A stretch of DNA of 64,000 bases from positions 18,189,514 to 18,253,513 of the forward strand of contig NC_019862.2 in assembly GCF_002234675.1 (NCBI RefSeq), given 5' to 3'. Positions 176 through 25,889 of the stretch are shown here, piece by piece (positions within the stretch are counted from its first letter, which is position 1; each line of letters opens with the position of its first letter). The notes below the pieces were generated by a model. It was not told where the DNA came from, did no database searches, and saw nothing but the letters and a program-made list of their open reading frames with translations. This DNA comes from Oryzias latipes. Lineage: Eukaryota > Chordata > Actinopteri > Beloniformes > Adrianichthyidae. Both the position numbers and the translations under genes were made by a program.

Positions 176-3100
176 GTGAGTCGAAGGAAACATTGGCATA
201 TGACTCAATCTGACATTGCTCGCTGACGGTTGTGAGAGTTACGTTGTACACCTGACCACACTGCAGCTCTGTCAGGTTACAGTGGAACTCATTGGTCACA
301 CAGGAAGCCACAAAGCCATCTGTTGCCACTGCAGTCACAATGTAAGAGCTGGCCCCGATGGCAGGGCTCCAGGAGACCTCAGCTGTGTTGTTGTAGCAGT
401 CGAGGCTAGCTGCCACGTTTCCAGCTGTGCATGGACCTACAAGACAAAAAGAGATTACTACCACCAAATCTTTATCTCATTCAAAGTGTTTTACACCTAC
501 AACAGTGAAAAAGAAACCCATAACTTTGTGATGTGTATACAAAACAACTGAGCAGCCGTGTCACAAATGATTATGCAAGAATTTTGTGGTAGACAGATGA
601 CTGAAAAAGATTGCGGAATGGGCTGTTTTTAGGATGCATAACTTCTTGATTGTCAACTGATTTGTTAAAGGGCATTAAAAAATACCAGATGTGTCAAGTG
701 AGACTTGAATTTTTTCAAGAAAGGGCAAGAAAAAATTAGATCTTTCTAAATAAAAATGAACACGTGTTAGGGAACAGCACCTGAAATCAGCAAGACAGTG
801 GTAGACATGCTGCTGTTGAGTGTCTCCCCGATGGCAATGACAGTAGTGTAATAGATGACTCCACAGTGGAGGTTTTCTACACTGCAGAAAGTGTCGTTGG
901 TAAGGCAGGTCAGTGAGTGTCCGTCACGTCCAGAGAGCTGAGCCTCGTAGCCTATGGCACCAAAGCTGGTCTCCCATGACACGGTTCCCTGGTTTGTTCG
1001 ACAGTCCACGCTTGTCTGCACATTATTGGGTGGACACGGTTCTGAAAGAAGAAACTTAAATGCAGATGGAGCACGTACAGGAAAAAGCCCTAAATCTATT
1101 TTTGAGTGTAGGATTCCAAAACAAAAATCAAGAAAAAGCAATGACCAGTTAAAACTGACCAGTTATGTTAATGCTTTTCTTTATTTTTGCTTTAAATGAA
1201 CCCTGTGAGTCAGGGTTCACCTTCTCACAGCTGTTTACCCACCTGTCATAATGGTAGCTGCTACAGTAGAGACAGACACATCGCTGCACGCTTCATTGTG
1301 CGCTCCAACTGTGATGTTGTAGATTTGTCCACAGCCCATGTTGTACAATGCACAATAGGTGTCGCTGGTAGTGCAAGAGACTACAAGTCCTTGGTCTGTT
1401 TCACCAATGACTGTGTAGTTTACAGCTCCACTGGCCAAATCCCACTGCACCTGACCAATCGTCAGGCTGTACTGAGCGGTGATGTGATCAGGGATGCAAG
1501 GCTCTGAGGGAGAGGACAGACAAGTGTGTGAATAACATACTTTCAGCAGCTTTAAAGCACTGTTGTATTGACAAGATTAAGAGTATTTTTTTCTATGGAG
1601 TCATTTCAAAACTGCAAATGGTTTTTTTATTTTGGAAAAAAATATGAATCTTGTATCACAAACAAATTGTTACGTTATTGTTTCAATGTGATCTTTAGTT
1701 ATTTTGTTGACTGCACACATTGCTGTGTACTTTGCTGGATTTATACAGAAATGTTTAAATAAAGTTGGTACTTGTATTATTTTGTCTTATCTATTTCAAA
1801 GAGACTGTGGACATTACTTTATTGACATTGGTGTATCAACATCAATCAGCACCATCAATATCAAATTAAAATTCACTTAAAAAAATCAATATTAATTAAT
1901 TGAACCCATTAACAAATTTTCCTTTGAAGTAATTCTTGGTTTGATTTGGCAAAAAAAATGCTTTTGTTAGGTTTAAATGTAAACTGTTTTATTTAATTAT
2001 TAAAATTTCCATCATTTTTCAGTTTCTGTCACCAGTTTAGTGAAAAATTGTTTTCACAACAAAATAAAATTCAGTTTGAATTGAAATTTAAAAATAAATT
2101 GATATTGAATAAAATAGAAATATACATTTGGGAATCAGAACTGAATTAATTTAACTTTTGTGCAGAGATATTCAGGTCTTTACTGGACTCACCTGTGACC
2201 AGTAGTCCACTCGTGTCAGCGATGCTGTTGCAGGAGTCTCCAATAGCTTTGACAGACACAGAGTAGCTGTGACCACAAAGCAGCCCTTCTAGTGTGCAGG
2301 TGGTCATGTTGGTCTCACAAACTGCACTGCTTCCAGACGCAGACATGGCCAAGACCTCGTATGACAAAGCTCCAATACTTGGATACCAAGAAACCTCAGC
2401 CGTCCTTGTGTAACAGTCCATCATTGCTTTGATGTATCTTGGTTTACAGGGTGCTAAAAGGCAATTAATTAAAAAATATTACATGACAACCACTGCATAG
2501 TATGCAGCTTTGCATACTCATACCAAGGGCATGTTTGGTTTCAAAGAAAACGAAAATGTTTAAAAAAGAAATGGGTCTTGGTGCCAAGCCCTACCTGAGG
2601 GTGTCTCAACCACAACAGAGGGGGGACTGCTGCAGTATCCATCAGAGGAGACCACAGAGGCTTGATAAATTTGACTACAGCCAAGTCCTGTGACATTACA
2701 AGAGCCTGTTGTTGTGCCCTGACAGGAAGTGATCTGATTGTTGCTGTCCCGCAATGAGGCGATGTAGGAATCAGCTCCAGGGCTCTCAGACCAGGAAACA
2801 ATCAATGCATTGGCTTCACAGTCCATCACAGAGGAGATGTTTGCAGGAGTACATGGCACTATGAATAAGAGACAGAGAGAAGAGTTAAAACGATGCCTAC
2901 ATGTATGCCGTCAATGAAGAGAGAGGGTCTAGTGTAGCAAAATCCCAATTAAAAACACAAGAACATTTTGGAATGTGCTATATGCACATTTTTTTCTGAA
3001 GCTGTCTGACTAAGTTACAGCAGAATAAATATTGTTTGTTGACCAACTGTCTTTTAAACAATTAAAGTAAAACTTTGGAGTCAATATTTCACAATCATTT

Positions 3101-6100
3101 TAAATCATGGATCTTTAGATCTGTTTTTTATTCTGCTTTATTTGTTAAGGATCTTACCAGTCTTGATGGTCACTCTCTCACTTGGTTTGCTCTTGCACTC
3201 TATGTCCTCAGCAGTCACAGTGGCTGTATAATGCTCTCCACAGTGGAGATTCAACAGATCACACTTGCTGTCAGGAGATCTGCATTGGTCAACGTGGCCA
3301 TCTGTGCCCACTGCTGTCACTGTGTAAAGCTGTCCCCCATTGCTGAAGCCCCAAGACATGGAGGCCACATTGTTGCTGCACCTCAGATTAGCTTCCAGCC
3401 TTTCAGGAACACATGGCACTAAAAGGAAGGGAACATGTTGGCTTTTCTTTTCTTTTTCAACTTAAAGTAGCATTTTTCTCTTTGAATACTTTTGTTCTGG
3501 TAGAAATATGGATGAAGAGGCATGTGTACCTGTTCTGGTGATGAGTCCTTGACTCTCTGAGCTGTTGCACATTCTCCCTTCAGCTGTGACATGCAGGATG
3601 TACATTTCTCCACAAGGCAGACCGGAAATTTCACAGCCACTTTTCGATGTGGTGCAGCAGCTGGGTTTGCCTCCATTTATCTCTTCTATCATGGCCGTGT
3701 ATGTAACTGCACCAGGAACAGCTGACCAGGTGATGGTCATGGTTCCATTCTCGCAGTTTACTAACTCCTTTATATTATCAGGGGGACAGGGAGCTGAGTG
3801 ATGAGAAACAAAGTTTGGGATTTAGATTTAAAGACATCTTTTTTTTCCATTTTGAAATCAAAGTTTTTTTAATGACACTTTTGCTGTTAAGTTTAATTTA
3901 CCAGTCTCAGTGACTACAATGTTACTGGGTGAACTTGTGCACTGCTGGTCTTGTGCCATCAGGGTAAAAGTGAGATTTTGGCTGCACGGCAGTGGTGGGA
4001 GAGAACACGTCCCATCTGTCCTGGAGTTACAGTCAAATGTCTGGACGGCGCCCAAACTGTCCGTAGCCATGACGATATAGTCTTCAGCTCCATCAGAGCT
4101 GTTAAACATCACCCAGGCTGAGTTTGCAAGGCAGTCGATCTCAACATCCGACAGATAAGGAACGCAGGGAACTATGGGCAAAAAATAAAGGGGAAAAAAA
4201 AGAATTTGACCATTCCATTAGATTTTCTGGTTTTGACATGTTTTATGCTCATTTTATAGTTTTTAGTACCTAATCCATTTTTGGGATTTCTAGCTTCATC
4301 AATCTGTAATCTTACCTAACTTGGTGCATGCAGGAAATGTAACATTTAGACAGTACTGGATTAATGATGCACAAATAGAAATACAAATATTTAAAACAGT
4401 AAATAAAAATTGTTGTTAAACAGTTTTAGCTTGAATTGTAATGTAATGAGAAAAAAATAATATCTAAAATATATAGTAGTCAGACAAACAGACAGTCAAA
4501 AATAAATTTACTCTTTAACAAAAGATAAATATTAGTGTCTTTACCAGTTTTAATCATCTCTGTAGGACTGCTTTTGCCCACACATTCATTCCTGGATGGT
4601 GTTATGGTAACGTTGTACTCTGTCCCACACTTCAGTGAGCTGAGATTGCATCCTGTGTCTGTGCCACTGCAGTTATGCTTTTGACCTGCAGCATCAACTG
4701 CAGTCACAGAGTGCACCAATCCTGTGATGCTGGTGTTCCAGGTGATAGATGCAACTCCCGTGGCACAATTTATTACAGGAAGGAAGGAGGAGAGTGGGCA
4801 GGGAGCTAGGAGAAAAGATAGAAAATAAAAATTGAAATGAAAAGTAAAACATATCTCTTTCCTATTTTTGGTAAAATAAATGTCATTCACCTGCAATGAC
4901 TGTTTTTACTGGGCTCAGGGAACTGTTGCAGGCCTTATCTTGGGCTCTTACTGTCACCTCATAGGTCATGTCACAATTCATGTTGTGCACTACACAGTAA
5001 GGTTTAGCTGTTGTGCAGCCAGTGATGTGACCTGTCTTGCTCCTTAAAGAGGCATGGAACTGCAAAAAGTGACCTGTTGACTGCCAGGTTAGGTTGAGAA
5101 CACCAGACGGACAATCGAGATGGTCCTGGATGTTCTCTGGCACACATGGTGCTGGTGAGAACAAAGAAAGTAATTAGAAGAAGATAAGATAAGGTACATT
5201 GAAGATAAGATCCTAAATTGATACTTGACAGCTTAGTTTCAGTGTTTTTCTAGTCAAACACGATCAATACTGCAGAAAAAAGGTAGGAATGAGCCTGTTG
5301 TAAAAAAGAAAAAAAAACAACATACTATAAATTGTATTTGTTAAAACCTAGAAAAATTGACAGCTGTTTGAATTGTGTATTGCAGGAATAAAATATTTCA
5401 ATAAGTACTGACTTTAGCTAGATTGAACCAGGTAATTGCAAATTTGAACTTACAGAAAAATGCCCCAAATTGCATTTTAAATTGCATATTTTTTAAAGTG
5501 CAAAGGAATGGACATCACATAATAATTAGAAGTAGAAAAGTCAAAACCATGTGCAAAAAATCTGCACGTGTATAAAATAGATTCTTTAAATCAGTGTGAG
5601 CATCTAAACTTCAACTGTAACTGATTAAAGCTTTGATTCATATGCATTGGTTGTGCAGTTTGTTCTTGCCATTGAATTCTTAATTTAAGCACGTCCAGGA
5701 GAGTATAGTAGCTTCTAAGAGAAATACAGTGTGCTAGACCAGAATTTTTTTATGGTTATTTGTAATTGAGCTTCTACTCAAACTAAACTTAATATGTAAG
5801 CAAATATGGCTCAAATTAATAAATGTACCTGTGTGAATAGTTTTCATGCCACTCCTGGCTCCGAAGCAGTTCTCATCTATACCAGCAACAAAGACCTTGT
5901 ACTCCTGGCCACACAGCAGATCAGGTATTTGGCAGGTGGTACTGCTGGTGTTACAGGACCACTGGTCGCCTTTTGTGTTTTCTGCCACTGCCATGTAGGA
6001 GACTGATCCTTGCGAAGCCTCCCATGAAACGGTGATGTTGTTGGATTCACAGGAAGAGTCTATCCTCATGTTGGTGGGAGGACACGGAGCTGGAGAAGAG

Positions 6101-9100
6101 CAGGAGAAACGTTAGGCAGATCACTTACTAACATCATCAAACAATGTAAAACCAGACCAAAAATAAAAAGGAACATACCTGTTATAATTCTGCGCCAAAA
6201 GTTTGAAGGGCTGGGACAATTTTCTCCCTGTCCGGTGACACTAACGCTGTATGTTTCTCCACATTGCAAAGAGCTAATGTTACACGAAGAACCATTGTTT
6301 GAGCACCCCTGTGTTTGAACACTGTTAAATGGTTTAGCTTTGGCATCATAATAAAGGATCCCTCTGCCAGGAGTCCAAGAAACCTCAACCGTGTTTGTGT
6401 TACAGTCTAGTGTGGCCTTCAAACCACTATAAGGACAAGGACCTGGATAGTAAAGAGAAAAATGAATTAATTTTAGGTATAGCTTTCTTTAAAGTTCTAA
6501 TTAAATGCTGTTTATGTCATAACTAATGAACATTTCCATAAAAGTGAGCATAAAGCTCAATGTCTAACATCAACAAAGATGTACTTTTTCTGTGACGCAA
6601 AAAAATACTGACAGATAATTTAATTTCAAGCATGAATACAAACGTTTTCCCAAAGTTAATGTTTAACATTTGTGGATTTGCTTTTATTTTTACATCAAAC
6701 TCTTCCAAATGTTGCCCAGCAAGCATATGACTCTTTTTTAGGCCATTGTTTTAACCCTATGGTGATGTCATTGGTGCAGTGTTTATTTTTGTGTGGTTCT
6801 GTTTTTTACCTGTGGTCACAGTGATGGTCTCACTAACCAAACTGGAACAGGTGTCATGAAAGGCCACCACGGTTATGTTGTAATCCTGCCCACACCCCAG
6901 GTCAAAGAAGTTGCACTCAGTGCTACTGCTGGTGCTGTTGCATTTAGAAGTGTGGCCAAGGCTACCCCGGGCATAGACGGTGTATGATGTGGCCCCAAGC
7001 GCTGAATCCCACGTAACCATGGTAATATTGACATCACAGTTTACGATTGCTACGACGTGGGTGGGAACGCACGGGGCTGGTGAGTGACAAAAAAAGAATA
7101 ATGATGGTTACTTTGAAAGATCTCCTGCACACACACACACACGTACATATATATATATTTTTTTTCTAACTGTTAGAAACTTTATAAAACAGGTGTAAAA
7201 GGCACACGCGCTAATGTGGTGCTGCTCCTTAGCACTGCAAGACAAAGAGGAATAATGTTGAATTGATACTAAAATATAGCTTTTGGTATATATTAGACCA
7301 TACCAGCAAATATTTTTTCACAAGAAAGAAAGAAGAGAGTCCAGACTGTAAGAAGGCAAAGACGATTGATATAGCAGAAAAATGCATTGGGGTTACTGGA
7401 TCCTGATTAAACTTCCAGACACTCTGCACATCATGATCCTGAATCAGCATTGTCCTCAGACAGACTTGTTAAGATCAGATGCTCAACAAATATCTGCAGG
7501 TTTTGTCTGACAGTTGTAATAACTGTATTTTATACTTTTTACAACAAATTAATAAGAGAGCCGCTAACTAGATTTGCTTTTCTAATACCGGTAGTTTGTT
7601 TTAGTTCCAGTAGTTCGTAATACTTTATTTGAGTTTTGGATTTGAAGTGTATATCTCAAAAATATTCTGTAGCTGAAAGCAAATGAGTAGTGATACATTT
7701 GTTTGTAAATAATTCTCCAGCAGAAACACAGAAGCTAGTTTTTTTTTTACTATTTTCCATAAAGACCTAAGACTGGAATGACTAGAATCTCCGTAAACTG
7801 CCTGCTAAAAACTTTGATGATCAATGCAGTGTTTTTTTTAATTTTGAAATTGACATTTTTAAATAAATCAGCCGAATACTGCAGACGATTCACAGCAAAA
7901 GTATTTTTAAGTTATTTTAGTTTTGTTTTTAAGACAAGTTAAGCGGAAACTGTTAGGATAGGGATATTTGACCCATTGCTTACATTGTATAGAAAAATTA
8001 GGATAAAAGAAATACCTAATGACACTTTTTTGCCAAATACATGTTGGTTTGTGTACATTTCTAGATACTGTATACTTCTTGAAGGTCTGTTACAAGTTTT
8101 TGATACTAATCTGCATGCCAGCTATTTACATTACATGGTGATATTCAGGACATTTTTTAACATAAACTCACCAACTGTAATTGGAAAGGGTATTTGTACT
8201 TTTAGATGCAAAGAGAAATTCAGCCTGCTAGGTGTGAGTACCTGTTTGGAGCACCTGGGCGACAGCCGGCTCACTGCTGCATGAGTTGGTGCGGCCTACC
8301 ACACTGATGGCATACGTCTTTCCACAGCTCAGCTGGTTGAAGGTGCAGTTGGAGCCGCTGGAGTAGCAGGTAGCTGTGAGTCCTCTACTGTCTGTCGCTG
8401 TGACCTCCTGAGTCTGGTCAGGGCCTGAGTGCTCCCAGGTGATCAATGCCACGTTAGTGCTGCACTGCAAACTCACAGACACTTGGTCTGGTTTACAAGG
8501 AGCTGGAAATGCAAAAAAAGGGGATAAAACATAGGAAAAAGGAATAAGTGAAGGCCATGAGACAGTTTTGGTGGTTCTACTGTTTTATATTTTTAATATT
8601 TTCCTAACACAAAACAATAATCAATCCATTTTACTTTAAAGCAAATTCTATATATTTTCTTACACAAAAAACTGCTTTTCCAGCATTTTTTTTTAATCAA
8701 AGAATTATTAATATAATTTTTTTAAGTGTACATGACAGCAGATTTTAAATAGTTATGTAAAAAGTAAATTGAAAAAAGTGTCTTTATAATATTACCACAT
8801 TGCCTCAAACAAAGTGGTAAATATCTAACAAAGTGAAACTCAGACGAGACTTTTCCTCTTCACTTTCTTATAGTTGAAAAACCAATAGTTTTAGTGTTTA
8901 CCCAACAACAATTTAAAAGTAACTCCAAAGAAAAAAAAATCCTTTAAAATAGTATGGTCGTTTTTTTAAGAAAGGGAAATAATAATGTCAGCAAATATTT
9001 GTTACACCTCAAATATCTAATAACTGTGCTCAAATTACGAGACAATATTAGAAAAATAGTATTAAACTCCTATTGGCTCAAATCCCGACGTATTTGTCTA

Positions 9101-12100
9101 TTTGGAGCAAAAGAAAACTTTTATCAACAGTATTTAGTAATGAATTACATTATCTCAGCAATACTTGTACAAATCTTTTTTTTCCATAAACAATATTTTC
9201 TCTCTTTTAAATAATGCTAAATCTTCACACTATGTTCTTTTACCTGAATAGATCTGGTAGTCTGAGCCCTGGATGACGGCACAGTCAACAGATGAAATGG
9301 TGACAACGATGCTGTACAGGAGGCCACACTTCAGGTTGTGAATGGTGCATTCAGGACTGGTGGAATTACAGCTCACACGGGAGCCGTCACTGCCAATGGC
9401 GATGGCAGTGTACAAACCAACATTCCCGACGCTTCCTCTCCAGTGCACAAAAAAGCTGTTGGTGCTGCAGTTCAGCTCGGCTTGCAGGTGGTCAGGCAGA
9501 CAGGGAGCTGTTTTGGAGGAAGAAAACGTTTCCATTCCACGATCTGGTCGGTGATTTTTCTGATCAAAGCAAATACAAAAGTTGAACTCTTACCTGAGTT
9601 AAAAGTTAAAGGTGAAGAACTGCTGCTGCATGATGCGGTGGAAGCAACCACAACTGCTGAGTACTGGTGTCCACAGTCGACTTTTACTGAGCAGGTTGTT
9701 GAATTAGTAGAACAGGAAACAGTGTGGTTATGGGTTCCAGTAAAGGTAGCTCTGTAGGAGATGGCGTATAAACTGGGAGTCCAGTTGAGAATCGCCAAGT
9801 TAGCACCACATTCAGTTTTGACTACCAGGTTAGTTGGAGCACATGGAGCTAAAAAAAAAAGGAACAAACATGTTAATTTGATTTTCCTGCAAATCCCTTT
9901 GAAAGAAAGTTAGAAGAAGCTTAGAGTATACAGGTATATAAAAGCAATGATATCCATACTATATAGAAAAATCATAAGGAATTTCAGTGATTTATTCATA
10001 AATATAAATCATATCCTTCCTCTTACTGCAAAAAACTATATTATTAGATTAAAATTGTATTTTAGCAAATACTTTGCAACAGGTTGTAAATGACATAAGT
10101 TAAAATAAGTTACTTTTGGTTTGTGTCAAAGATTAAATTGACTAATTCTATTAAAGATTCATTTAAAAAAATGTAAGTATCTAATTATTTGTAAAGTAAC
10201 TTAAAAATACAGCTTATTCAATATATTGGACAGATACTTTTCTGATTAATAGGTCAGTCATTTAGCTGGCTATAGTCAGGGGCAGAGCTATGAGGGGGCA
10301 GCTGCCCCCACCAGTAAAAAGCTTTGCCTCCCCAATTTTTAAGTCAATATTTGCATCATTATTGACAAAGGTTAAGAAATCACAATACAAGTTTCTTTAG
10401 GCATTGCAAAAATAACAAAAGCAGTAATTTTCATAGCACCTCAGCTAAAAGAAGTGCTGTTTTTATTATTAACAATAATAAAGCTGTGTGAAATTGATAT
10501 GTTTGATCTAGTCCCTTGTTTTGGCCTTCCACTTTGCTTTTTTTCCTTTGCCCCCCTTCTAAAATATTTTATCCCCTTCCCGCCTGTCTATAAAACTTTT
10601 AATAGAAAAATGTTCCTGTGTGCACTGAATATTAGGAATCAATTAATTTTCTTTAAGTATAACTTTTTTGCTCAGTCATGACAGTAGCTCTGGTGGACCT
10701 CGAAGGGATCAGAGCATTGCTGTAAGAAGATCTTCTACCTGTTGCACTATGTGTCTCTCTGCTAAAGACACTGCTGCACGCAGAGTTCTTGGCAGCAACT
10801 GCAAATGTGTGCAGATCCCCACAATGCAGCCCGGTGACAGTGTAAAACGTCTGAAAGGTGTTGTAGTTAGCAGGAGTGTTCTTGTCGTCCTGCGAGTGGA
10901 TGATGTATTCCACTCCGCTCTCTGCACTCAAGTCCCAGCTCACTGTAATTTCATTGTTGTTGCAGCTTGTCACAGAGGTCACACCAGTAGGGGGACAGAT
11001 AACTGAAAGTAGGAAAAGGGAAGCATGGTCATTTCAAAATCTATTGATGTCAGAAATCATAATCAATCAGCAACATTAATAACAAATGTTCAAATCAAAT
11101 ATCAATCATCCAGGTCTTTATGATGCTGTAAAGGAAGGAAACTGGACTTTATGTTTTGTCTCTGGAGGCGGTACTTTTAAAGGGATAATTCCTGAAACTC
11201 ATTTAACATTTTGTTGATCTTAAAGAGGGGAATTTTTCCACATAAAAACAAAAACATCTGAGATCTTCTAATCACAAGTCAGTGGTTGAACAACCAACAG
11301 GTTTTTTTAAGCAGAGGTAAATATACAAAATTAGCAATGAATGACCAAAAAATAAAAAAGAATGTCTTGAATCAAATATTTAACATTTTGATTACTTTGA
11401 GACTCTTGTCACTGGACAGATTAAATGTTTTTCAAAATTTAAGCGTACAGTAATTTTATTTCTTTAATGGCAACAAAAAAAAAAAGTGCAAAAAATGAAG
11501 TGCAACCTTTCTTTATAATTTTTGGAAAAATAAAAAGTAGTGGACACCAAGCTTTTTTACAATTAGCTGTATTGTCAAATATTTTTCTTTTTTTGGGTGG
11601 GGGATCAGATTTGGAACAGTTAATTACAAAAATATGTCATTTAAATTCTTAATTGTGTAATTTTCACAATTGAATGTAAACAATCATTGCTCTGACCTGT
11701 TTTCAAAAATAATGGTGTGCTGGGTTTGCTCCAGCAGCCTCGCTCCTTGGTGGCGACAGTGATGGCGACTGTCTCACCGCAGTGCAGGTCTGTGAGGGAG
11801 CAGCTTGTTCCATTGGAGGAACAGTTATGGGCATGTTCATCCATGACGGATGGTAAAGTCTTCACTACGTACAGTTCTGCCCGCAGGGCAGCGTCCCAGG
11901 TGACATGGCCCACGTTACCATCACACTGTAGAGATGCTTGGATGTTGGTGGGGGGACAGGGCCCTGTAGAAAAGATGGCAGACAATGAAAGAGGAGAACA
12001 GTGGAAATGTTAGGAGACTAGACTGGGAGATTGCAAAGGTTGATTTTTAGCAACTATAAGTTTATTGACTTCATTTATTTTGAATGATCTAAAATGCAAT

Positions 12101-15100: not shown

Positions 15101-18100
15101 TGTTAGTGGAGCACTCCACCACACCTTGGACGTTCTTAGGTACACAGGGAGCTAAAAACAAAGAGGTGTTAGGAAGTGAACAAGAAGGGAGAAGTTTCTT
15201 TTTGTAGTTCATAATCTTTCACCTGAATTAACGATTGTGGGAACACTGCTGGAGCTCTCACACGCGCTGCTCACGGCTTTGACTGTCACTGTGTATTGCT
15301 GTCCACATTGTAAAGTGCTAACTGAGCAACTGGAAGCCTCCGTCATGCAGTTGAGAGCAGTGCCATTTGGTGACAAAACTGTGGCGCTGTAGTTGACAGG
15401 CATGGATCCAGGCGACCAGCTCACGCTCAGCTTATTGGTGCTGCAGTTGAGTGTATTTGACACGCTCTGTACAGGACACAGGGCTGGGAGAGGAAACCAT
15501 ATCAACTTTAGTTTGACAATAACAAAAAGAAATCTAAAGTTGTTATAGAAACTTAATAAGTGGACATTTTCTCTCTGAAAATGGCTGTCTATGTATTCTC
15601 TCCTTACAGTATGAAGGATAATCATTTAATCATTAAAAACATACCTTTGAAACCCTTTTTTTTAAGAAACGCTTTAAAAAGTGCAAGAAATATTGCATTA
15701 CTTCTTAATTCTCTTATTTTTACTCATGTTTGCATTCTGTGTTGATATATCAGAGCATTTTAGAGCAGCTGTTTACCAGATAATTGATCTGGTAAACAGA
15801 TTGATGTAAAAGATTTTTTACATTAAAACCATAAGAACTGGGAAAAGCTTGTTTGACACAACAGATTCTTAGATCTGCACCAAAGCAAGAAAACTTAGTT
15901 TTGTTCTTCTCATAACTTGTTGACAAAACTGACAAAAAGCAGCAGTAATGGTAAACAAGGAGAAAAAAATTGTTACAGTTTGATCAAAACAATAAAGGAA
16001 CATTGCTGTTTTTCTGCATCTCACCTGTTGTTTGGACGACAGATTTGCTGTCTAAGCTTTGACAGCCACCGTCTGTTGCTGACACAGTGAAGGTGTACTT
16101 AGTCCCACAGCGTAGACCTGCCATCTGACAGCCAAGCTCTCTTGTACTACAGCTAACGTTGTGACCATCAGCGCTCACTGCTTTGCCAGTGTAAGACACT
16201 GCATTCAAGCTGCTGCTCCATGATAACTTGGCAGAGTTGCTGGTGCAGTTGACTGAGGAAGTCAGCTCAGAGGGAGAGCACGGTTCTGCAGAGGAGAATG
16301 GGACTTAAACAAAACATGTCAAATGCACCAAACTGCACTTTTTGTTTGTCTTTACCTGACAAAAGTTGCACTGCAGAGCTCCGCTTGCTGGTGCACACGT
16401 CATCTACAGCAGCAACAGTGACGCTATAATTGCGTCCGCACACCACTCCATTCAGCCGGCATGAAGTACCATTGGAGACACATTCTAAGCGATGGCCATT
16501 TCCGTCAATGGCGGCTGCAGAGTAGTTTTTGGCTCCAGGACTTGCCTGCCAGCTCACTTCCACAATGTTTTGCCCACAATTCTTTGTTGCCGTCACGTTA
16601 ATGGGCAGGCAAGGTGCTGGAGGAATAAAAAAAAAAAACCCTTATAGCATAAACAAAAAAAGCAACACTGCCACCACAAAAACATCAGTGTGTTTCTTTG
16701 CTTTGAAATGATCTGTATGGCTTCCCCATCTCTGTTACACAATAAATGTATAGGCTGAGAAACAAAGGCTAAAACTTCTACCTCCTTTGAAGTTTACTCG
16801 TGAAGGAAAGCTGATGCAGCTCTTATTGAAGGACCTCACTTCCACTGTGTACTCTTGACCACAGTTCCTTGAGGGTATGATCAGCTGGGGCTCTGTGGTG
16901 TTATAGTTAGTCATCTGCTGGTTGCTGTCTGAGATCATTGTGATGTATCCATCTGCATTTCTTTGAGCGTTCCAGCTCATGTTGACACCACCAGAAGCAC
17001 AGTCCACAGAGGCGCTCACATTTGCTGGCCCACATGGAACTGGACAAAAAGAAGAAGGGTCGGTAAAGGCTTACTGTGTCTGCGTCTCTTCTTATTAATA
17101 TGTTTGGAAAGTACATGAACAGTTTTCAGAAAGATGTAGCCTTTTCCTGTGGTTCATTTTTGTTAAAATAGAATCATGTCACAACTACAAAGGAAAAAAC
17201 TACAAAGAAGCAGATTTTAGTAACAACTTTCTCATAGCAAAACTTTGATTAGGCTTTTACAAACATTTAAAATAATTATTTTACTAACAAAGCTGTATCC
17301 TATACCGCAATGTCTCTAAAATGAACATAGCGTATGGCTCAAGTAATATCATAAATTAAAAAATAAAAGTAGAATTTTTGTTTTATTGTTGTTAATGCCA
17401 TTTTATGGGTGTGTGTTATTTTCATTTGTAGCATTTATTAACCTTTAACCCTTGTGCTATCCTAGGCACTTTAACATTGGGATTTGGGTCATCTAGACCC
17501 ACTAGACAGTGTGCTGAACCTTTTTTCTTCAATGATTTGTGATCTTCACTGGTGTCCATGGATTACATGAAATCTTTCCACCTTTATCCACCTTTGTCAT
17601 GGTAGGGAGAACACATCAATGTAAGGATGGGGTCATCTAAGATAGCACAAGGGTTAAAAGACCCGCTCAGATGAAAACGCATTTTTGTCATGAAAGAGGA
17701 CAAATATAAAGAAACTTAAGCCTAAAAATGAATTTCTGAGTGTTTCGTTATGCAGATTGTTGTGAATCCGAATCAGATGAAAAAAATTTCGGTGGAAAAA
17801 GCTTGTAGTTGTGTTGTAGGTGCTACAATCGGTGGGCCACAAGCTCCCTGCTTGGCTCCATTCTGATGCATCCCCTTGCAGACAAACAGATCCAGGTTCG
17901 TCTTTGTTTTCCTCGTCTGAGCTGGCAACTAGTTTAAAACTATATGACCCGATGGCTCCAATATTGCTCGCAAATTTATTTTGTCACCAGTAATGTCATC
18001 ATTTTGGGTTTTGAGGGGCTGCAAACTAGCTGTAGAATGCGTAAACAGATAGATGAGGGAAATGGGAGTGGGCTTACTCTGTGTCTAGGCTAGGCTTATA

Positions 18101-21100
18101 AAATAGATCAACAGATGATTGAAGTGGGGACTTTAAGGACCTACAGTATTTCTTGTAAGGATTTATTTAGACAACATTTGAAGCAACATGACTTCTTACC
18201 AGAGTGCATGTAGATGGGTTTGGACATCAAGCCTGGGCATGTGCCATCATGGTAACTGACAGTGATAGTGTAGAGTTGGCCACATTTCAGGCTGGGCACT
18301 CTGCAGCTCTGCTTAGTGGAGCTGCAACTGAGAAGGCCATTGCCTGTGTCCGTCATGGTGGCAGTGTAGGAGTTCAATGAAGGAGCTCCCTGCCATGAAA
18401 TCTGAGCCTCGTTGGCAGCACAGTCCAGGGAGGCGGTCAGGTTTTCTGGTGGGCAGTAAGCTGAAATCACAAAATTCAACACATTTCTGAACTTGCTTTT
18501 TGAGCTTTTGTACAATATGGATGTTATGCTCTTTTGGGGGATGTTTGCACTTGGTATTTAAGGCTATCATTGCCTTTAAAGCATGAATAAGCAGCTTTAG
18601 AAAAAACCTAATGCCACTGTACCTGTTTCTATGGTGACCACTTCACTTTCAGAGCTGTTGCACATGAAGTTGGAGGAAATGACAGAGACCTTGTATTTGG
18701 TGCTGCACTTCAGGCCACTGATCATACAGGACATGTCTAAGGAGTTGCAGCTGTGCGTTTCACCATCATCATCCTTTGCCTTGGCGATGTAGAAAAGTGA
18801 ACCACTGCTTAAACTCCAGCTCACCATGACCAAGTTATTTCCACACTGTTTCACAGCATTTACATTCTGAGGGGTGCATGGGGCTAGAGAAGAAGAAACA
18901 AATTCAGAAAAACTGCCTTCATGCATTAACCAAGTTTTAACATAACAGTAAAATGATTGTTCTGTAAATGTATTGTATTTTCCTTGTGGTAGGGTGAGAA
19001 AATTGCTAATTGCTGCCCTCTTATAGTTATTTGCACATTTTATACTACAACATGGATTCTATAGTAAGCTTTTCTGATCATGACAGTTAACTAGAAAATT
19101 ACTGGAGGAAGAATCTGTGTTTGCAGCTTCTTCTTTTGTTTTTTTTAATGATACTTTATTCTAACTCAGCCCAAATGGAGTGACAATTTACACGTCCAAA
19201 GACAGCTATTTTAACAGTTACAGCAACATTTGTGCGTACCCATAGATCGAACATATGTATTTGTTCTGTAAAAATGCATAGTGCTTTTTTTTTGGGGGGG
19301 GGGGGGGGGGGGGGGGGGGTTGCCAAAAACTATTCTTTTATAATATAAAAATATTCTTTGTGTAAATTATGTTTTGTGGATTTTTTTACTGTACATGGCA
19401 TTTCTTTCTGTTACCGCACATCTATCACCCAGGTCTTTTTTACCTGTCTCAGCAGGAAGCCCAAGCGTGGGTGGACTGTCACATTCATCGTCAGAGGACT
19501 TGATTGAGATGGTTAGGCTTTCCCCGCACTGCAGGCCGGCCATAGCACAGCTGTTGGACTGTGAGCTGCAGGAGTAAATGCTGTTTTGGAAGTTGCCCTG
19601 TGCCGTCACGTTGTAGCGCAGGGCTCCTTCAGCATGGTCCCATGTGCTGAGCAGAGTACCTGTGCTGCAGTTGGCGTACGTTTGCAGATTTCTGGGCATA
19701 CAGGGTGCTACATGCAAGTAGGAAAGATATGTACACTTACTATTTAAAACCTAAAAGGTGTTTAATCTGCTGAAACTAGAAAAGCATAGATGTTACATGA
19801 AAAATGAATTGCTGTCTGTTGTTTTAAAGCTGTATCTATTAGGCTACGTTCACACCTGCCTCTGCAACGCACGTTCAAGCAATCACTTTCAATTAAGCGT
19901 TTTTGAAAATGCGCATTTATGCGCGTTTTGGACTTCTGTGTTCAAAACACTCGTGTTCGTGTGTCGCTACGCAAGTTTTCAAGTCAATTTTCAGGCACTA
20001 CGTACAAAACACATTGCCAATGAAAGTTAAACCAGTTGAACTTTGACCAATCAGGGACTCTGTAGTAATGTATGAATAGCATTCTTTTTAATTCACGGAA
20101 GTGCCAACTACTTAAAAATTGGTGGAGAAAGTTATCATAGCGCTTTGTACCCGGCAGGAATTGTATGACACCAAGTCTTTCATATTTTGGAATAGATCGT
20201 GATTTGCCCTGCCTTTTTATTTCGCACCAAGCCGCTTCCAGGTACATGCACTAGTATCTGGTAGCGACGGTCCAGTGTGATCACCATATGCCGAAAGCAC
20301 ATTCAAGAAAGTGTTCTTGAACATGTGTCAGATATCCATTGTGAACGTAGCATTACATATAGAGGAACTTAAACATGTTACATTCTGGTGCAGAAAAAGC
20401 CAATTTAGAGAAGTTACACACTGAGTTTTGATGCATGAAATACTTTGTCCTACCTGTACGGACACCAACAGCTGTGCTAAAGTCGCTTTGGCAAGACCCA
20501 GAGGTTGTAGAGACAGTGAAAACATAGCGCATTCCACATTGTGTATTTGTGAAATAGCAGGAGTTTTCCCTAGTCAGGCAGTTTTGGACATTTCCCTGAA
20601 GAAGAAATTTTAAAAGATAATAAAAGCCGAGTAAAGAATTTGCACTTTTGCATTCTTCCTAAACTAAAATTGAAATCCAACTTAGTAGCTGCCAGAAGCA
20701 ATTTAGAGCTGAAACACTAATTTGTACATCACAGACAAAGTTGTCACACGAACAGAATTATAGCTTGAATAAAAGTGAAGAAGTGTTTTGGCAGATTCTT
20801 GTCATATTTGAGCTGGCATGTTATCTTATCATATAAATAGCATTTTTTAATACTTCACAGGTAAACTTTGCAGCAGAAGAAAATTTAGATTTTTTGGATA
20901 ATCAGTTGCTGAGTACCTTTGAGTCAACTGCCTTGGCCAGGTTGTAGTCTGCACCGTTTGTAAGGTTCCAGGAGAAGATGATGGCATTGCTCCAACATTC
21001 CCGCAACAATGTCAAGTTGTTTGGAGGGCAGGGCACTTGAGGAGAAATTACGTGTAAAAATATATATGTGTTACATACAGGTCTCAAATGTATTTCAGTA

Positions 21101-24100
21101 TTATTTTTCAAAGAACTTAAACTTCATACAAATGCAAGCCTTTGACAACATGAACACTATATGAGACTGTCTCTAAGGGAGGCCCAGTTTTCAAAGTAGG
21201 CAGGGCGATACGGTTCTGAGAAGTGAAAAATCCTAAAATGTAATACAAGAAAAACAAGTCTCCCCTGTGACTCAAAGCTAATGTGGTCTCAGCAGCACAC
21301 AGGTAGACTTAAAAAGACAACTGATGTTCCCAAACGTTATCGGATTTATCCTTTTTTAAAGTTATTTGTTGGTTTACACGCAAATCACGAGTGGAGAGGA
21401 CAGTAGTGCCAACACTGCAAGAAGTCACTAGACAATGGAGGTTGCTTTTAGTTCCAGCAGCAGAAAAAGTGCTTATTATCTACTTGTAACTAAATCTTAT
21501 TGAGCACTGTTAAAGTCACAAAAAGATCAGAAAGCCCCATGCGACCTGTGTGGGTGGAACTCGAAAGCAATTTCTCACCAAGTCTCCAAAGGAGAATAAA
21601 GCAATACGTGACAAGAAAGAAAGAACAAAGCAGAATTGAGGGTGGACAGGTATTTAAAAGAACATTAGCCAGGCATCAGAACACATTGAATTACATATTT
21701 CTGCTAAAAAACTGGCATGTTTATTCAGGTTGTGAATGTGGTCCTACTGTTTTCTTTGTTAATGTATTATGTAGATAAAAGTTTTACATCTAATTAGTTT
21801 GGAGCACTGTTACAGAAAAATAAATAAAGATTTCTTTAATTCCTATGTTGATTACAATATTCAATGTATGTTTAATCCTAGATTTGGCATGCTTTGCTCC
21901 AACACGTATCTATTTAACCACAGAATATTTTTCTTAAAGAATAATAGTAAACACTTAAAACTGTAATTATTAGATTTATATGCTTCTGTTTTTAACTAAA
22001 GTAATAGAAAATCTTTGTTTTAGGTCTTGTCTGTATGTTTTTTTTCTGTGATTGGTTAACTCCTTGATGTCTATTGATGCAAATATGCAACAAACCATAT
22101 CTGCTTCAAACTCATCTCGATTTACAATCTATTAGAAGGCAAAAGCACAAGTGATTTTTTTTTCTTAGCTGAAAATAGATACAGGCGTCAAGGGGTTAAA
22201 CATTTAATTAGAGAAGAAATAGCTCATTTTTACTTTGAAATATGTCAAATGATTAGACTTTGCCACTATGCCAATCACAAAGAAGCTCAAGTGGCAACCA
22301 AAACACACTGAAAATAATAAGAAAAAAACAATTTAACAAATGCACGTTCTACAAATACAAACTTTTGCAGCTTTATGAAATAATGCCTGGTGTCTATGAT
22401 GCTTAGCGAGCTATTCAACCTCATCTTTCTTGTAAGACGTTTTTTTTCTATTAATTCTATAGCTTTGAGTCACACTTTAAAGTCCTCTGGGGCTGTTGTC
22501 CTGCTTCTGTTCACTTTACCACTGTCCCTGCTGCGTTTTGGTCAGACACACCTGTTCCAGTTAAACAGCAGCAGGTGGGGCAGGGATCTCTGGAAAACAA
22601 GTGGGGCGCCAATCCCAGAGGACAGAGTTTGGACATCCATCCTTTCTTTTCAAGTTCATAAAAATGTTGCAGAATTAAAACCAGAAGGTTCACAGAAAAA
22701 GATCATTTAGATTTAGCGAAGATGTGACAGGAATGCTTGATGACTGTTTGAAATCTTCGTATGTTATCTTTGAACCAATAAAAGAAGAGAAATTTGTAAC
22801 AAGGTTAAGCAAGTAGTTGTGAGAAAATTCCAACTTTGAGCTTCAGACGTGGTTTTAAAGGAAAGGATAGAGAAACGTCTTCTGTCTAGAGTCTCTGAAA
22901 TATAAATCCTCTCATTTATAGACCTGCATTTCATACCAATGGGTCAATGTAGACCCAACTCTAAGCAACCACACATGAACTTTATTCCAGATGTTTGGTC
23001 ATTAAGCATTTGAAAAAGAAAGGAATTGTTTTTCTTTCTTACCTGTCTGAAAGAAGACAGAGCTGGTGTTGACTAAGTTCTTGCAGTTCCCTGACAGGGG
23101 CGTGACGTGAACCTCATAGAGCTGACCACAATCTAGCGCGCTCAGCTGACAGCTGGTGCTCCGGCTAGTGCACTCAATCTTTGTACCGTTTTTAGGAGTA
23201 ACTGTGGCCACGTATGAGTCGGCTCCAAGAACAGCCGTCCAAGACACTGTGGCAGACTTGGTGGAACAATCGTAGTCCACATTGACTGATGACACCGGTG
23301 TCAGTTCTGCAAGGAAAAAACCAGTGTTGGATTTTTGTCTTAAAAAATATTCATTTAAACAAAAGTTATTCACGATCAAGAGTGAATGCCTGAAATTTTA
23401 GGAGATTTTTTGGTTTCTAAAGAATAAAATATTAGTTTACTGATCTCCATGTCTGATAGCATAAACTCTTTATCATTATGTTTTGAGATTATGTGGGAAT
23501 AATAACAATTCGACATGTGAGTCAGGACATCTGAGTCTTTTTAAACCTGAGGATTAATTTCTACATGCCTGAAAGGGACGCCTCAGAGAGAATAGCTGCC
23601 CTAGATCCTAATCACCAAGTTATAGATATTGGTTTGACTCTGCCAACTTACTGTTAGTGGTGTACGTGTAGTCTGTGGGCTCGCTTATGGCCAAAAATGT
23701 GTTATATGAGTACACTGATATCAAATAGTTGGTACAGGGGTGGATGTTTCCAATGTCCAGCTGGGTGTTTGTGACATTGTAGACTGAGGGCTGGCTGGTG
23801 GGTTCATCCAGGTTCTGGATGGCGACTTTGTACAAGAGGACGTTGTCCACGGGCTGCCACGTCACTCTTGCCGTTACTGGGTTTGTTTGTACTGCTTTAA
23901 CGCCTACTGGAGGGGGCGTCACTAAAAACACAGTTAAAAATGAAAGACTTAAGAATGGGTTATTCAAGAGAAGAGGTTCTTCCTAGTGTGTTTGTCTCTC
24001 CATAAAACTTTAACCTTTGTCATTTGTGAGAAGAGTTTCTGCAACTTTTTTTTCCCAGAAAATTAAGTTTTAGTTTTATAAGTCAGCAGATATTTTTCAA

Positions 24101-25325
24101 ACAAAGCTGCAGAATATAGATTAGACTACAAAACAAAGTGACAAACTCTTCTGGTTAAACCTAAAGCAGCATATTCAAAATATGAACAATAAAATGCCAA
24201 ATTTATGAAAAATAAAACCCAAACAAATCTAAAACCATGTATGTAACACATATAAAGGTTATTAGATTAAAAAAACAGCAAAGTAAATATTTAAAGAGCA
24301 GATTTAAAGCAACTTTTAGATTCAATTCAGATTTCTGAACTATAGACATAAATAACTTAAAGGTTGTCACTTACAAGTGGTGATGGTCCTAACTCGGCTT
24401 CTGTTCCCAAAGCCGGCCTGGTTAACTGCATAGACATAGCAGTCGTAGTTGGTAGAAGGCTGAAGGTTTCTTACTACAGTTGAGGTGTTGTAGAGGGTGA
24501 AGTTGATCATTTTCCCTGTGGTCTGAGAATAAACCTGCAGTACATAATACTGCCCAGAAGTCACATTAGTCCATCTTACAGAGATGGAAGAGCTGGATAA
24601 TGGCCTTCCCTCCGATATGTGAGGCGTGTCAGGGACTGGGGAGACACAGCAGAGAAAAAGGAAAAGGTGTAATTTGACTGAACAGGAAGTGGATTTGGGG
24701 CAACTTATACAATGTATGCATTCTCTGTCATATAACTACGGTACATGATTTATCTCATGAATTGTGTTATTTTCAGCAATAAACTTGTTACACAGAAAAA
24801 CAAATGATTGTACCTGTACGTGCCAACGTTGTGGTCATACAGTCTATTAAGTAGAACCTAAAGACTTTTAGGGTCACATTGTACTCGGTTCCAGGTAACA
24901 GACCCTGCACAATCCTTTCTGTCCTTTGGTCAAGCCCTAATATAATAATCGGAATAAAATCTACGGAGCTTGTCCTTCGGATGTCTAACATGTAGCTGGT
25001 TCCTGTCGGATATTTTTCCCATGTCAACTGGAGAGAAGAGCTACTTGGAGAACTTGCTGACAGGAAGTTGCAGCCTGAAATAAATGAATAAACACAAAGC
25101 CTGGTTTGAAACGGTGTCCTCTGCAGATAAATGTTACCAACTCGAATTTTAATTATTTTCTTACCGTTTGTACTACACTGGTTTATCTGTAATTGAAAAA
25201 CAAATTAATTATACATTCTCTCAAAATACTGAAATTCAAAGTACATTTGTTTTAGTATTTTGTTTTTTTACCTGTGTGAGAAAAACCAAAACTGAAGAAA
25301 AGATTGTGGCTCTCAGAAATCCCAT
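176..25325 (-). CDS. fndc7-like: giant FNDC7-like secreted FN3-array protein (5' part; continues past left edge)
   Basis: The gene reads right to left. Exon 1 (25272-25325) starts at ATG 25325 and encodes an 18-residue hydrophobic signal peptide (MGFLRATIFSSVLVFLTQ). Exon 2 (25165-25186) is a 22-bp micro-exon. Then come 34 single-exon FN3 domains plus one domain split over two exons. The in-window coding total is 9,253 bp, about 3,084 residues. The last exon here (176-436) ends in a clean GTGAGT donor with no stop, so the 3' end lies outside the window. The first three domains are ordinary FN3; the rest are a cysteine-rich FN3 variant starting with a PC-x-P motif and carrying many N-glycosylation sequons. 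FNDC7 is the closest family I recognise, but mammalian FNDC7 is only about 730 residues, so this is far larger. No membrane segment is visible in this part, so I infer a secreted or surface glycoprotein. It could be more than one transcription unit, but I see no second signal exon or terminal exon inside the array. Confidence 0.85.
1504..2192. other. intron, AT-rich, nothing recognised
   Basis: Intron of the giant FN3 gene (689 bp). It holds AT-rich, low-complexity DNA with A/T runs. I see no exon-like FN3 motif, RNA gene or clear transposon. Confidence 0.5.
7077..8241. other. long intron, nothing recognised
   Basis: The largest intron (1,165 bp) in the left part of the array. It contains a short CA/TA run near 7130-7160 and AT-rich sequence. 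I looked for a terminal exon, signal-peptide exon or stop-bearing FN3 exon that would mark a gene boundary and found none. Confidence 0.45.
9849..10738. other. intron with possible old transposon remnant (about 10270-10620)
   Basis: Intron of 890 bp. The stretch from about 10270 contains a small self-complementary GGGGGCAGCTGCCCCC core followed by a C/T-rich segment. This looks like a degraded interspersed repeat, but I cannot name a family. Confidence 0.3.
14060..14600. repeat. interspersed repeat, copy 1 (unnamed teleost family)
   Basis: Lies in an intron of the FN3 array. It shares long similar stretches with 17660-18135, including AAAAAGCTTGTAG, GGTGGGCCACAAGCTCCCT, CGTCTTTGTTTTCCTCG and CACCAGTAATGT. 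Its ATTTCTGAGTATTT segment also recurs at about 53045-53165 and, inverted, at about 60125-60265. I see no coding capacity. It is probably a nonautonomous element. Confidence 0.6.
17445..17657. mobile_element. piggyBac-like MITE, copy 1
   Basis: A 205-bp element (17449-17653) flanked on both sides by TTAA, with perfect 13-bp inverted ends CCCTTGTGCTATC. TTAA target duplication and CCC-starting ends are the hallmark of piggyBac elements. It has no ORF, so it is nonautonomous. A second copy of exactly the same length lies at 25894-26098. It sits at the left edge of another repeat, within an intron of the FN3 array. Confidence 0.8.
17660..18135. repeat. interspersed repeat, copy 2 (same family as 14060-14600)
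   Basis: Collinear with copy 1, including the shared GGTGGGCCACAAGCTCCCT block and the segment before the CACCAGTAATGTCAT stretch. A terminal motif near ATTGAAGTGGGGACTTTAA resembles sequence at about 27820. It directly abuts the TTAA-flanked MITE on its left. Confidence 0.55.
19285..19319. repeat. T9-G26 homopolymer tract
   Basis: Nine T followed by 26 uninterrupted G, within an intron about 125 bp from the domain exon at 19444-19707. In the gene's sense direction it is C26-A9. A run of this length could form quadruplex-type structures and is prone to sequencing and assembly error. Confidence 0.9.
19842..20352. mobile_element. nonautonomous DNA transposon (hAT-like?), about 510 bp
   Basis: The ends carry the inverted motif GCTACGTTCACA (19843-19854) and its complement TGTGAACGTAGC (20340-20351). 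The interior is distinctive, CG-richer than the surrounding intron, and has no coding frame. I could not fix a target-site duplication, so the superfamily is a guess. Confidence 0.55.
20454..21035 (-). other. fndc7-like: FN3 domain 5, split by an extra intron
   Basis: This is the only FN3 domain in the array encoded by two exons: 20917-21035 (119 bp) and 20454-20595 (142 bp). The first half carries the VPCPPNNL start and the strand-B Trp; the second carries the last four cysteines and the usual TG end. The two halves join in phase 0 after DSK and before GNVQNC, and give a normal 87-residue domain with all six cysteines. The outer borders remain phase 1. The intron is 321 bp with AG/GT borders. 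Confidence 0.85.
21036..23042. other. longest intron in the FN3 array (2.0 kb)
   Basis: Separates the first four FN3 domains from the split domain. It holds one small MITE (22060-22195) and otherwise AT-rich sequence. A 92-codon plus-strand frame at 21500-21778 has no recognisable motif and is not called as a gene. If the array were two genes, this is the likeliest boundary, but no terminal or signal exon was seen. Confidence 0.4.
22056..22199. mobile_element. TTAA-flanked MITE, second family
   Basis: A 136-bp element (22060-22195) between two TTAA copies. Its ends are imperfect inverted repeats: CTCCTTGATGTC on the left and GGCGTCAAGGGG on the right. The TTAA duplication points to piggyBac-type insertion. 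The end sequence differs from the 205-bp family elsewhere in the window. Confidence 0.6.
23043..25074 (-). other. fndc7-like: FN3 domains 1-4 of the giant gene (three conventional, one transitional)
   Basis: Exons 24814-25074, 24375-24635, 23652-23921 and 23043-23306 each encode one FN3 domain with phase 1-1 borders. The first three have the FN3 core (Trp in strand B, the L.PGTEYNV-type turn before strand F) and almost no cysteines. The fourth has five of the six cysteines of the variant class but lacks the first. The 9-domain paralogue also opens with three cysteine-free domains, so this N-terminal block probably predates the duplication of the two genes. Confidence 0.85.
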
Positions 25326-25570: not shown

Positions 25571-25889
25571 GACATTTTCTTCTTTTAGTTGATTGGTCTT
25601 CTATTATAACATCTCGAGTTTGCATCTTTGTTGAATTTTGTTAAGACGATGAATGAATTTACACATTTTCTGACAAATAACACTGCATCCTTTTGTTGAA
25701 GTTACATCTAAATCATTAAATAAAATATTTTAAATCCTCATACTGCATATTTAAAATAAACACCACATTAATGTTTAACTTGGTTTTACTAACAATGTCT
25801 TTACTTTATTGTGGATGTTATCATTTTAGTTACTTTAGCTTGGTAAATAAAAAAGCATTATGTTTCAATGTAGGCTGTATAGTGTAAAT

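Follow-up and report, generated by a model that had tools for sequence, protein, structure and literature searches.

How far does the gene that opens with a signal-peptide exon at 25.3 kb extend, and what kind of protein would it make? It lies in the window, a stretch of 64,000 nucleotides of the medaka genome (C4:18189514-18253513; position 1 is the first letter of the stretch), where a sequence-only reading had proposed an FNDC7-like gene expanded to at least 35 FN3 domains. Below we argue that it is a giant tandem FNDC7 paralogue whose domains may be stapled to one another by disulfides.

A single reading frame of 59 exons

We read 144 kb, comprising the window, 60 kb to its left, and 20 kb to its right; this sequence contains no N runs. 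A profile made from the first domains was run on open frames of at least 25 amino acids on both strands (E≤1), and splice sites were fitted for each profile match with AG and GT obligatory, a procedure by which phase-compatible boundaries arise partly by construction. All FN3 exons found lay on the minus strand and formed two clusters. In full, the C4 giant has 59 exons and 58 GT/AG introns, measures 14,304 nt when spliced, and encodes 4,767 amino acids with 54 FN3 domains. The only stop in the spliced reading is its end, at window coordinate -8546 (C4:18180967), about 8.5 kb left of the window edge. Its window part comprises 38 exons, 35 domains, and 9,253 coding nt, or 3,084 complete codons, exactly the numbers reported before (at least 35 domains and 3,084 residues without a stop from position 25,325 to the left edge), and 21 further exons follow past that edge. 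Since only 28 of 9,035 overlapping intronic windows of 261 nt are open in the given frame, against one terminal stop in 14,304 nt, a chance origin of this reading frame is excluded.

All exons lie on the minus strand. Exon 1 (25272..25325) carries the start codon and the signal peptide MGFLRATIFSSVLVFLTQ and ends in phase 0; it is followed by a 22-nt mini-exon, exon 2 (25165..25186; phase 0 to 1, INQCSTN). Exons 3 to 5 (23652..25074; individually 25074-24814, 24635-24375, and 23921-23652) encode FN3 domains 1 to 3, which do not have the cysteine set typical of the array. Exon 6 (23043..23306) encodes domain 4, the first array-type domain, which lacks the first of these cysteines (C1), and domain 3 correspondingly lacks C5. 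Exons 7 and 8 (20454..21035; pieces 21035-20917 and 20595-20454) share domain 5, and exons 9 to 38 (176..19707), each of 255 to 270 nt and phase 1-1, encode domains 6 to 35; exon 38, the last inside the window, occupies 436-176. Throughout the gene, each exon encodes one FN3 domain except at domains 5 (in the window) and 39 (outside it), each of which is split by a single phase-0 intron, with AAG before the intron and G after it in both cases. Almost all domain exons have phase 1-1, a length of 261 nt is shared by 31 of the 59 exons, and the four internal domain exons that are not symmetric are the halves of domains 5 and 39. Thus, the fitted model (AG/GT required) bears out an FNDC7-like gene that is open on one strand from its signal-peptide exon, and, these two domains excepted, its construction from a duplicated symmetric phase 1-1 exon.

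The predicted protein has a calculated mass of 507.7 kDa before glycosylation, 119 N-x-S/T sequons, 291 cysteines, and a single RKRR site ahead of its last domain; RGD is absent from all 4,767 residues. A membrane anchor was considered and rejected: the C terminus is not hydrophobic, and the three 19-residue windows with a mean hydropathy above 1.6 fall in two places, both inside FN3 domains. Secretion is predicted, and the earlier description of the product as secreted and glycosylated is supported to this extent by the signal peptide and the sequons.

The array domains are FN3 domains

When the 45 array exons were scanned singly, 38 matched Pfam fn3 at E≤0.01, and no other Pfam family matched more than 4. 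The N-terminal 639 and C-terminal 379 amino acids of the C4 giant also match fn3; in these end pieces, curated cutoffs were reached only by fn3 and, on the last domain, by Interfer-bind, itself an FN3-type profile. Apart from FN3-type profiles and sub-threshold matches, the scanned parts contain no other domain type. One domain of the 54, modeled from an alignment of 45 domains, was predicted with seven strands (mean pLDDT, 93.4; pTM, 0.82); Foldseek ranked fibronectin FN3 domains first for this model (TMq up to 0.88), and the best match of the domain profile among PDB sequences was fibronectin 1fnf (E=7.4e-16). The array domains are FN3 domains.

The giant adjoins an ordinary FNDC7-like gene

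As the earlier reading had stated, a paralogue with nine FN3 domains lies next door: a gene of 13 exons and 818 amino acids at 33371..41428 on the minus strand, with RGKR three residues ahead of its stop. In the available portion of the source, buffalo FNDC7 is described as having 13 exons and 811 amino acids (PMC8615036). The 5′ layout of the C4 giant, a signal exon followed by a mini-exon, recurs in this neighbor and in both of the C17 genes described below; for these three genes, the mini-exon lengths are 16, 22, and 19 nt.

Beyond the neighbor lies a Sec1-family gene on the plus strand (46296..50512), seen as two pieces (46296-46505 and 50153-50512; Pfam Sec1, E=3.2e-12 and 4e-10). We take this gene to be STXBP3-like and STXBP3 to be the syntenic neighbor of FNDC7 in human. 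Past it are MORN and MYND pieces, presumably of an ANKMY1-like gene, and left of the C4 giant are a weak Hen1 match (E=0.022 in an NCBIfam scan) and a mitochondrial-carrier gene. We assume that this gene set corresponds to the human 1p13.3 neighborhood of FNDC7 and STXBP3.

The giant thus has an adjoining Sec1-family gene, a mitochondrial-carrier gene that is found beside it on both C4 and C17, and the 5′ exon layout and cysteine-bearing FN3 exons of its C4 neighbor. FNDC7 itself has about nine FN3 domains in about 810 amino acids, and because the giant has 54 in 4,767, we file it as a giant FNDC7 paralogue, not as FNDC7. The array is FNDC7-like, as had been proposed, but it is a separate tandem paralogue beside an ordinary FNDC7-like gene and not an expansion of FNDC7 in one fish.

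The FNDC7-like genes on C4 and C17 share with the giants the phase-0 signal exon, the phase-0/1 mini-exon, one FN3 domain per phase 1-1 exon, cysteines C1, C3, C4, and C5 (numbered as below), the dibasic site near the C terminus, and the locus. They differ in having 9 FN3 domains rather than 54, in having no C2 at all and a C6 only in domains 6 and 9, and in stopping three residues past the dibasic site, where the giant runs on into another FN3 domain.

A collinear second giant on C17

When one array domain was searched against the same genome, at least 80 places matched at E≤0.01, and every match found lay on C4 or C17. C17 carries a complete second giant (C17:23041383-23020270, minus strand) with 42 exons, 3,439 amino acids, 39 FN3 domains, 123 sequons, and RRRR ahead of the last domain; no 19-residue window beyond its signal region has a mean hydropathy above 1.6. 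It adjoins an FNDC7-like gene of 13 exons and 811 amino acids (C17:23046749-23053728). All four genes have dibasic sites near the C terminus (RKRR, RRRR, RGKR, and RQRR). Both giants begin with the signal exon, the phase-0/1 mini-exon, and three plain FN3 domains, continue with the array, and end in a C-terminal part consisting of two odd domains, a dibasic exon, and a last FN3 domain.

The 39 domains on C17 all align, without change of order, with domains among the 54 on C4. The collinearity score is 3159, compared with 605 ± 149 (maximum, 1126) in 200 shuffled orders, and 28 of 32 reciprocal best domain pairs lie on the collinear path, with 4 off it. The flanks also correspond in order and orientation: the mitochondrial-carrier gene is common to both, with pieces up to 90% identical, and so is another gene, which we take to be FAM102-like and whose short pieces reach 90% identity. 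By eye, the mitochondrial-carrier gene has EF-hand-like pieces. A piece suspected to belong to PRPF38B on C17 gave no Pfam match.

According to the part of the source available, medaka chromosomes 4 and 17 trace back to teleost protochromosome m, one to each of its two duplicates (PMC3568907). Because the collinear giants lie on C4 and C17, the long array is probably older than the teleost genome duplication, provided that contig numbers equal chromosome numbers, which a set of 24 contigs and one small extra contig suggests.

We name the domains of the C4 giant G and those of the C17 giant H. Selection was estimated from 36 of the 39 collinear pairs, leaving out the doubtful placements G27-H21, G28-H22, and G29-H23; mean identity was 40%, pS was 0.73 (near saturation), and pN was 0.43. 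Comparisons of fourfold sites among the C4 array domains give identity in 0.326 of cases, against 0.257 by chance. Judged by these sequence comparisons, the array is old and under constraint at the protein level. The array domains of C4 have a mean pairwise identity of 30%, which is flat along the array (means of 0.287 to 0.311 at spacings of 1 to 19). Recent expansion of this array by copying of neighboring exons was rejected, as identity is independent of distance. The expansion is thus an old one. On C17, the sequences indicate a likely local block duplication. A domain tree, based on few columns, has good support at only 3 of 60 inner branches and is compatible with either a single or a multiple origin of the array domains. 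Because both introns that split domains on C4 are absent from the aligned C17 domains (the C17 counterpart of domain 5 is one exon), our comparison suggests that they were gained on C4.

One gene, several genes, or an artefact

Several separate genes and an assembly artefact were the two ways in which the earlier reading allowed that it might be wrong. If transcription divided the array into several shorter genes, or yielded many alternative isoforms instead, no 54-domain protein would be made. Symmetry leaves room for isoforms, as skipping any internal domain exon of the C4 giant except the four domain halves keeps the frame. Start-like exons were defined as an ATG, a hydrophobic run, and a good donor in phase 0 or 1, with a strict donor threshold of 7. 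At this threshold, none was found on either strand in the 19,393 nt of C4 introns 3 to 58, and an upstream control recovered the true start of the C4 giant. Lowering the threshold to 4 gives one signal-peptide-like start place in C4 intron 25, and to 3 a second in intron 9; in the C17 giant, intron 32 has one at 3, and intron 36 has one even at threshold 7. Of the four real start exons, that of the C17 FNDC7-like gene (donor, 4.8; hydropathy, 1.59) falls short of the hydropathy limit of the scan and would have escaped it at every threshold used. As the scan is not fully sensitive, the comparison with C17 is the stronger argument for one gene: the relaxed-threshold candidates lie at noncorresponding places in the two copies, and the start exons and last three domains are conserved between the giants. 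In both arrays, a donor and an acceptor of compatible phase could be fitted to every internal exon, AG and GT being obligatory in the fit. Given the start-exon scans and the C17 comparison, separate genes inside the array are not preferred, and we regard this reading as very unlikely. The chance that the array is an assembly artefact or a decaying pseudogene array appears negligible. Tandem arrays are prone to misassembly, but array domains that average only 30% identity, with a maximum of 47%, are neither collapsed nor multiplied copies; moreover, 4,767 codons are open, identity is 0.50 at codon position 2 versus 0.34 at position 3, and an intact collinear copy stands on C17. We therefore continue with the C4 array as one intact protein-coding gene, a giant tandem FNDC7 paralogue encoding a secreted chain of 54 FN3 domains; together with the stapled-rod explanation developed below, we consider this likely.

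Cysteines agree across domain junctions

The most unusual feature of the giant is a pattern of cysteines that runs across its domain junctions. A joint alignment of 85 array-type domains has six mostly cysteine columns, with cysteine counts of 83 (C1), 77 (C2), 75 (C3), 75 (C4), 83 (C5), and 77 (C6). In the modeled domain, these are residues 2, 13, 44, 51, 58, and 73, predicted to lie at the N terminus, in the AB loop, on the C′ strand, on the E strand, in the EF loop, and in the FG loop, respectively. In FN3 domains, the AB and EF loops are at the C-terminal pole, and the N terminus and the BC and FG loops are at the other.

C3 and C4 are both present or both absent in every domain of both giants. 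Across the two giants, C5 of domain n matches C1 of domain n+1 in presence or absence at all 91 junctions, ends and joint absences included, and C2(n) and C6(n+1) agree at 87 of 91. All four mismatches fall at the ends, two per gene and at matching places, each with a substitute cysteine close by, in aligned column 86 (EF side, domain 3) or in column 35 (BC loop, antepenultimate domain); the substitute reading of these ends is post hoc. Among the 79 internal junctions, C2(n) is missing at four (G33/34, H11/12, H22/23, and H25/26), and C6(n+1) is missing at exactly the same four. The hypergeometric probability of this joint loss, 6.7e-7, makes the evidence look stronger than it is, as the losses are not all independent. 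H23 and H26 are 72% identical, H22 and H25 are 46% identical, and G33/34 matches them; by sequence, G33/34, H22/23, and H25/26 probably stem from one loss, and this shared descent leaves only two independent C2/C6 loss events.

C2 and C6 disagree within domains in 2 of 54 cases on C4 and 6 of 39 on C17, and across junctions in 2 of 53 and 2 of 38; the C4 giant alone does not separate within-domain from cross-junction C2/C6 pairing, whereas the C17 giant does. For the other combinations, within-domain disagreements on C4 and C17 number 2/54 and 2/39 (C5/C1), 2 and 4 (C2/C5), and 4 and 6 (C1/C6). In the FNDC7-like genes, C5 and C1 alternate likewise, with a first domain that has C5 and lacks C1, and the chains end in VTC or VPC directly after the last domain, where the C1 of a next domain would be. 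Domains 5, 6, 8, and 9 of these genes have more complex cysteine sets. Extra cysteines in G29 and H20 and a lone one in G02 fall outside the cysteine rule.

This cross-junction covariation is most simply read as two disulfides that join neighboring domains at each junction of the giant's array (C5-C1′ and C2-C6′), with mainly one such bond in FNDC7; we judge this pairing likely. The competing pairing, in which the extra cysteines bond only within domains (C2-C5, C1-C6, and C3-C4), would give a flexible string of very stable beads. It is geometrically possible, since C2 and C5 share one pole of the predicted fold and C1 and C6 share the opposite one, and internal disulfides are known in the FN3-like domains of cytokine receptors. 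It would, however, leave C2 and C5 in disagreement within G33, G52, H11, H22, H25, and H37, and C1 and C6 within G04, G34, G52, G53, H04, H12, H23, H26, H37, and H38, whereas the cross-junction rule leaves none of these domains odd if two substitute cysteines are allowed. Domains 5, 7, and 8 of both FNDC7-like copies, which have C1 and C5 and lack C2 and C6, and the terminal VTC/VPC cysteine at the position of the next C1, also count against it, and we consider it unlikely. The literature searched, which was partly covered, yielded no description of interdomain disulfides in tandem FN3 chains or of such a covariation of cysteines; a paper found with the FN3 term on interdomain disulfides concerns, in the part seen, the IL-3 receptor and not an FN3 chain.

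A proposed stapled rod

The preferred cross-junction pairing would work as follows. An array-type domain typically has six cysteines, of which C3 and C4 would form an internal bond. At its pole facing domain n+1, domain n would present C2, from the AB loop, and C5, from the EF loop; C2 would pair with C6 (FG loop) and C5 with C1 (N terminus) of domain n+1. An ordinary FNDC7-like gene would use mainly the C5-C1 staple, to which the giant would add the C2-C6 staple. With the same two half-junctions on nearly every domain, exons could be inserted or removed and the chain would still snap together: each exon duplication would add one stapled unit whose half-junctions fit any other domain, and symmetric phase 1-1 exons would allow a domain to be duplicated or lost without damage to the frame. 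At about 3.2 nm per FN3 domain, the chain would form a stiff rod, glycosylated and roughly 170 nm long, in which bending and unfolding at the joints are restricted. The conserved dibasic site near the C terminus may be cut by a furin-type protease, which we think somewhat more probable than not, and such a cut may complete or license the protein.

Chains of FN3 domains are known to behave as strings that flex or that unfold under force. Disulfide-stapled junctions, if true, would instead make a rod that is stiff and constant in length, and the exon layout of the gene shows a way for such a rod to grow by exon duplication without mispairing. Fibronectin and tenascin are, like the giant, long secreted FN3 chains; the scanned parts of the giant contain FN3 domains only, in contrast to both, and the giant also lacks the RGD cell-binding site of fibronectin throughout its 4,767 residues. 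We know of no interdomain disulfides in the FN3 domains of fibronectin or tenascin. Titin has many FN3 domains in one chain but is intracellular and has Ig domains and a kinase. The comparison with titin made in the earlier reading thus holds for length only, as the giant has a signal peptide, is predicted to be secreted, and shows only FN3 domains where scanned. A giant FNDC7 paralogue as such may already exist in public annotation under some name; in the literature searched, as far as the sources were available, we met no account of a giant fish FNDC7 or a giant teleost FN3 expansion.

Where the rod might act

The expression data concern FNDC7 relatives in zebrafish and mouse and not the medaka giant itself. 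In the accessible parts of the reports, mouse Fndc7 is enriched 138-fold in cochlear supporting cells at P1, which places it 8th in the list of enriched genes (PMC5137903), lateral-line support cells of zebrafish are marked by fndc7a (PMC6363392), and another data set has fndc7a upregulated uniquely by neuromasts (PMC11328412). The zebrafish fndc7rs ("related sequence") genes, teleost relatives of FNDC7, include fndc7rs4, which marks a ring of mantle, anterior-posterior, and polar cells among the neuromast support cells, again according to the portion available (PMC6363392). These fndc7rs genes may be the counterparts of the giant. A human noise-hearing study, seen in part, has a suggestive single nucleotide polymorphism at FNDC7/STXBP3 (P = 4.7e-4, below genome-wide significance), to which we give no weight.

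Expression of FNDC7 relatives in the support cells of hair cells points, weakly and by analogy, to the gel over mechanosensory organs: support cells would secrete the rod into the cupula or otolithic membrane above the hair cells. Although we propose this setting, we rate it as less likely than not. It is an even bet that the rod is instead a general extracellular or mucosal matrix protein, of skin, fin, gut, or egg envelope. FNDC7-named genes also appear, in what could be seen of the sources, in swordtail, pupfish, tilapia, and sea bream, in fins, among jaw candidates, and in embryos or larvae, and the swordtail fin, pupfish embryo, and sea bream larva data favor a general matrix; the 119 sequons and the length would suit any glycosylated matrix. 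Against a general matrix, the most specific of the available expression reports are those on cochlear supporting cells and neuromast support cells. The complete proposal, a disulfide-stapled FN3 rod of 40 to 50 domains that has been kept in two copies since before the teleost duplication and forms stiff filaments in the cupula or otolithic membrane, is doubtful.

To our knowledge, the giant gene appears to be missing from mammals. The comparison with C17 suggests that a gene apparently absent there has been kept as two long genes in medaka since the genome duplication. No function of FNDC7 or its relatives was met in the literature searched, within the parts available. A 2025 paper, of which a part was available, describes the composition of the cupula matrix as poorly understood (PMC11765562), and a giant FNDC7-type filament is a testable candidate for that matrix. 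The same part of that paper describes zebrafish lateral-line Mucin-5AC, a secreted family of variable copy number with 2 to 27 CysD domains, which comes from neuromast support cells and is needed for normal cupula length (PMC11765562); it is a mucin with CysD domains, unlike the giant with its FN3 domains. The sequence-only reading had seen neither the end of the gene outside the window, nor the two split domains, nor the cross-junction cysteine pattern.

Two FN3 domains of the giant FNDC7 relative on the window's contig (C4) are each split by a phase-0 intron: domain 5 by the intron at window 20596-20916, and domain 39 by the intron at window coordinates -1548 to -1463, left of the window on C4. 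Because the domains aligned to these in the second giant, on C17, are single exons, as are the other array domains, the comparison suggests two intron gains in one duplicate, the C4 giant. Intron 36 of the C17 giant, which separates exon 36 from exon 37, contains a candidate start exon that resembles a signal-peptide exon and has a good donor; its occurrence inside the array is probably due to chance.

Both nine-domain FNDC7-like proteins that neighbor the giants carry a dibasic site followed by three residues and the chain end: RGKR then SLA on C4 (window 33371-33402), and RQRR then SVK on C17 (C17:23046749-23046780). This site at the extreme C terminus is a conserved putative processing signal. 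Further cysteines, in PCCP motifs and elsewhere, are common to the two copies in domains 5, 6, 8, and 9 (within window 33698-41169 and C17:23047386-23053016), hinting that these proteins may form more disulfide bonds than the proposed C5-C1 bond between successive domains.

A different FN3 array lies on C6 (C6:31323382-31353127, plus strand; loci L017-L020), where 31 nearly identical FN3 exons average 94% amino acid identity and are mostly spaced ~981 bases apart, in what looks like a gene for a receptor-type tyrosine phosphatase. This array is recent; by contrast, the FNDC7-type giant array of C4 is old.

Within the window, a 112-base stretch, probably an interspersed repeat, occurs in two places with 95% identity (17444-17555 and 25889-26000, the latter stopping at the end of the searched region). 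Reverse-transcriptase-like frames lie at 57806-58273 (plus strand) and 29860-30054 (minus strand); both resemble the end of LINE-type reverse transcriptases.
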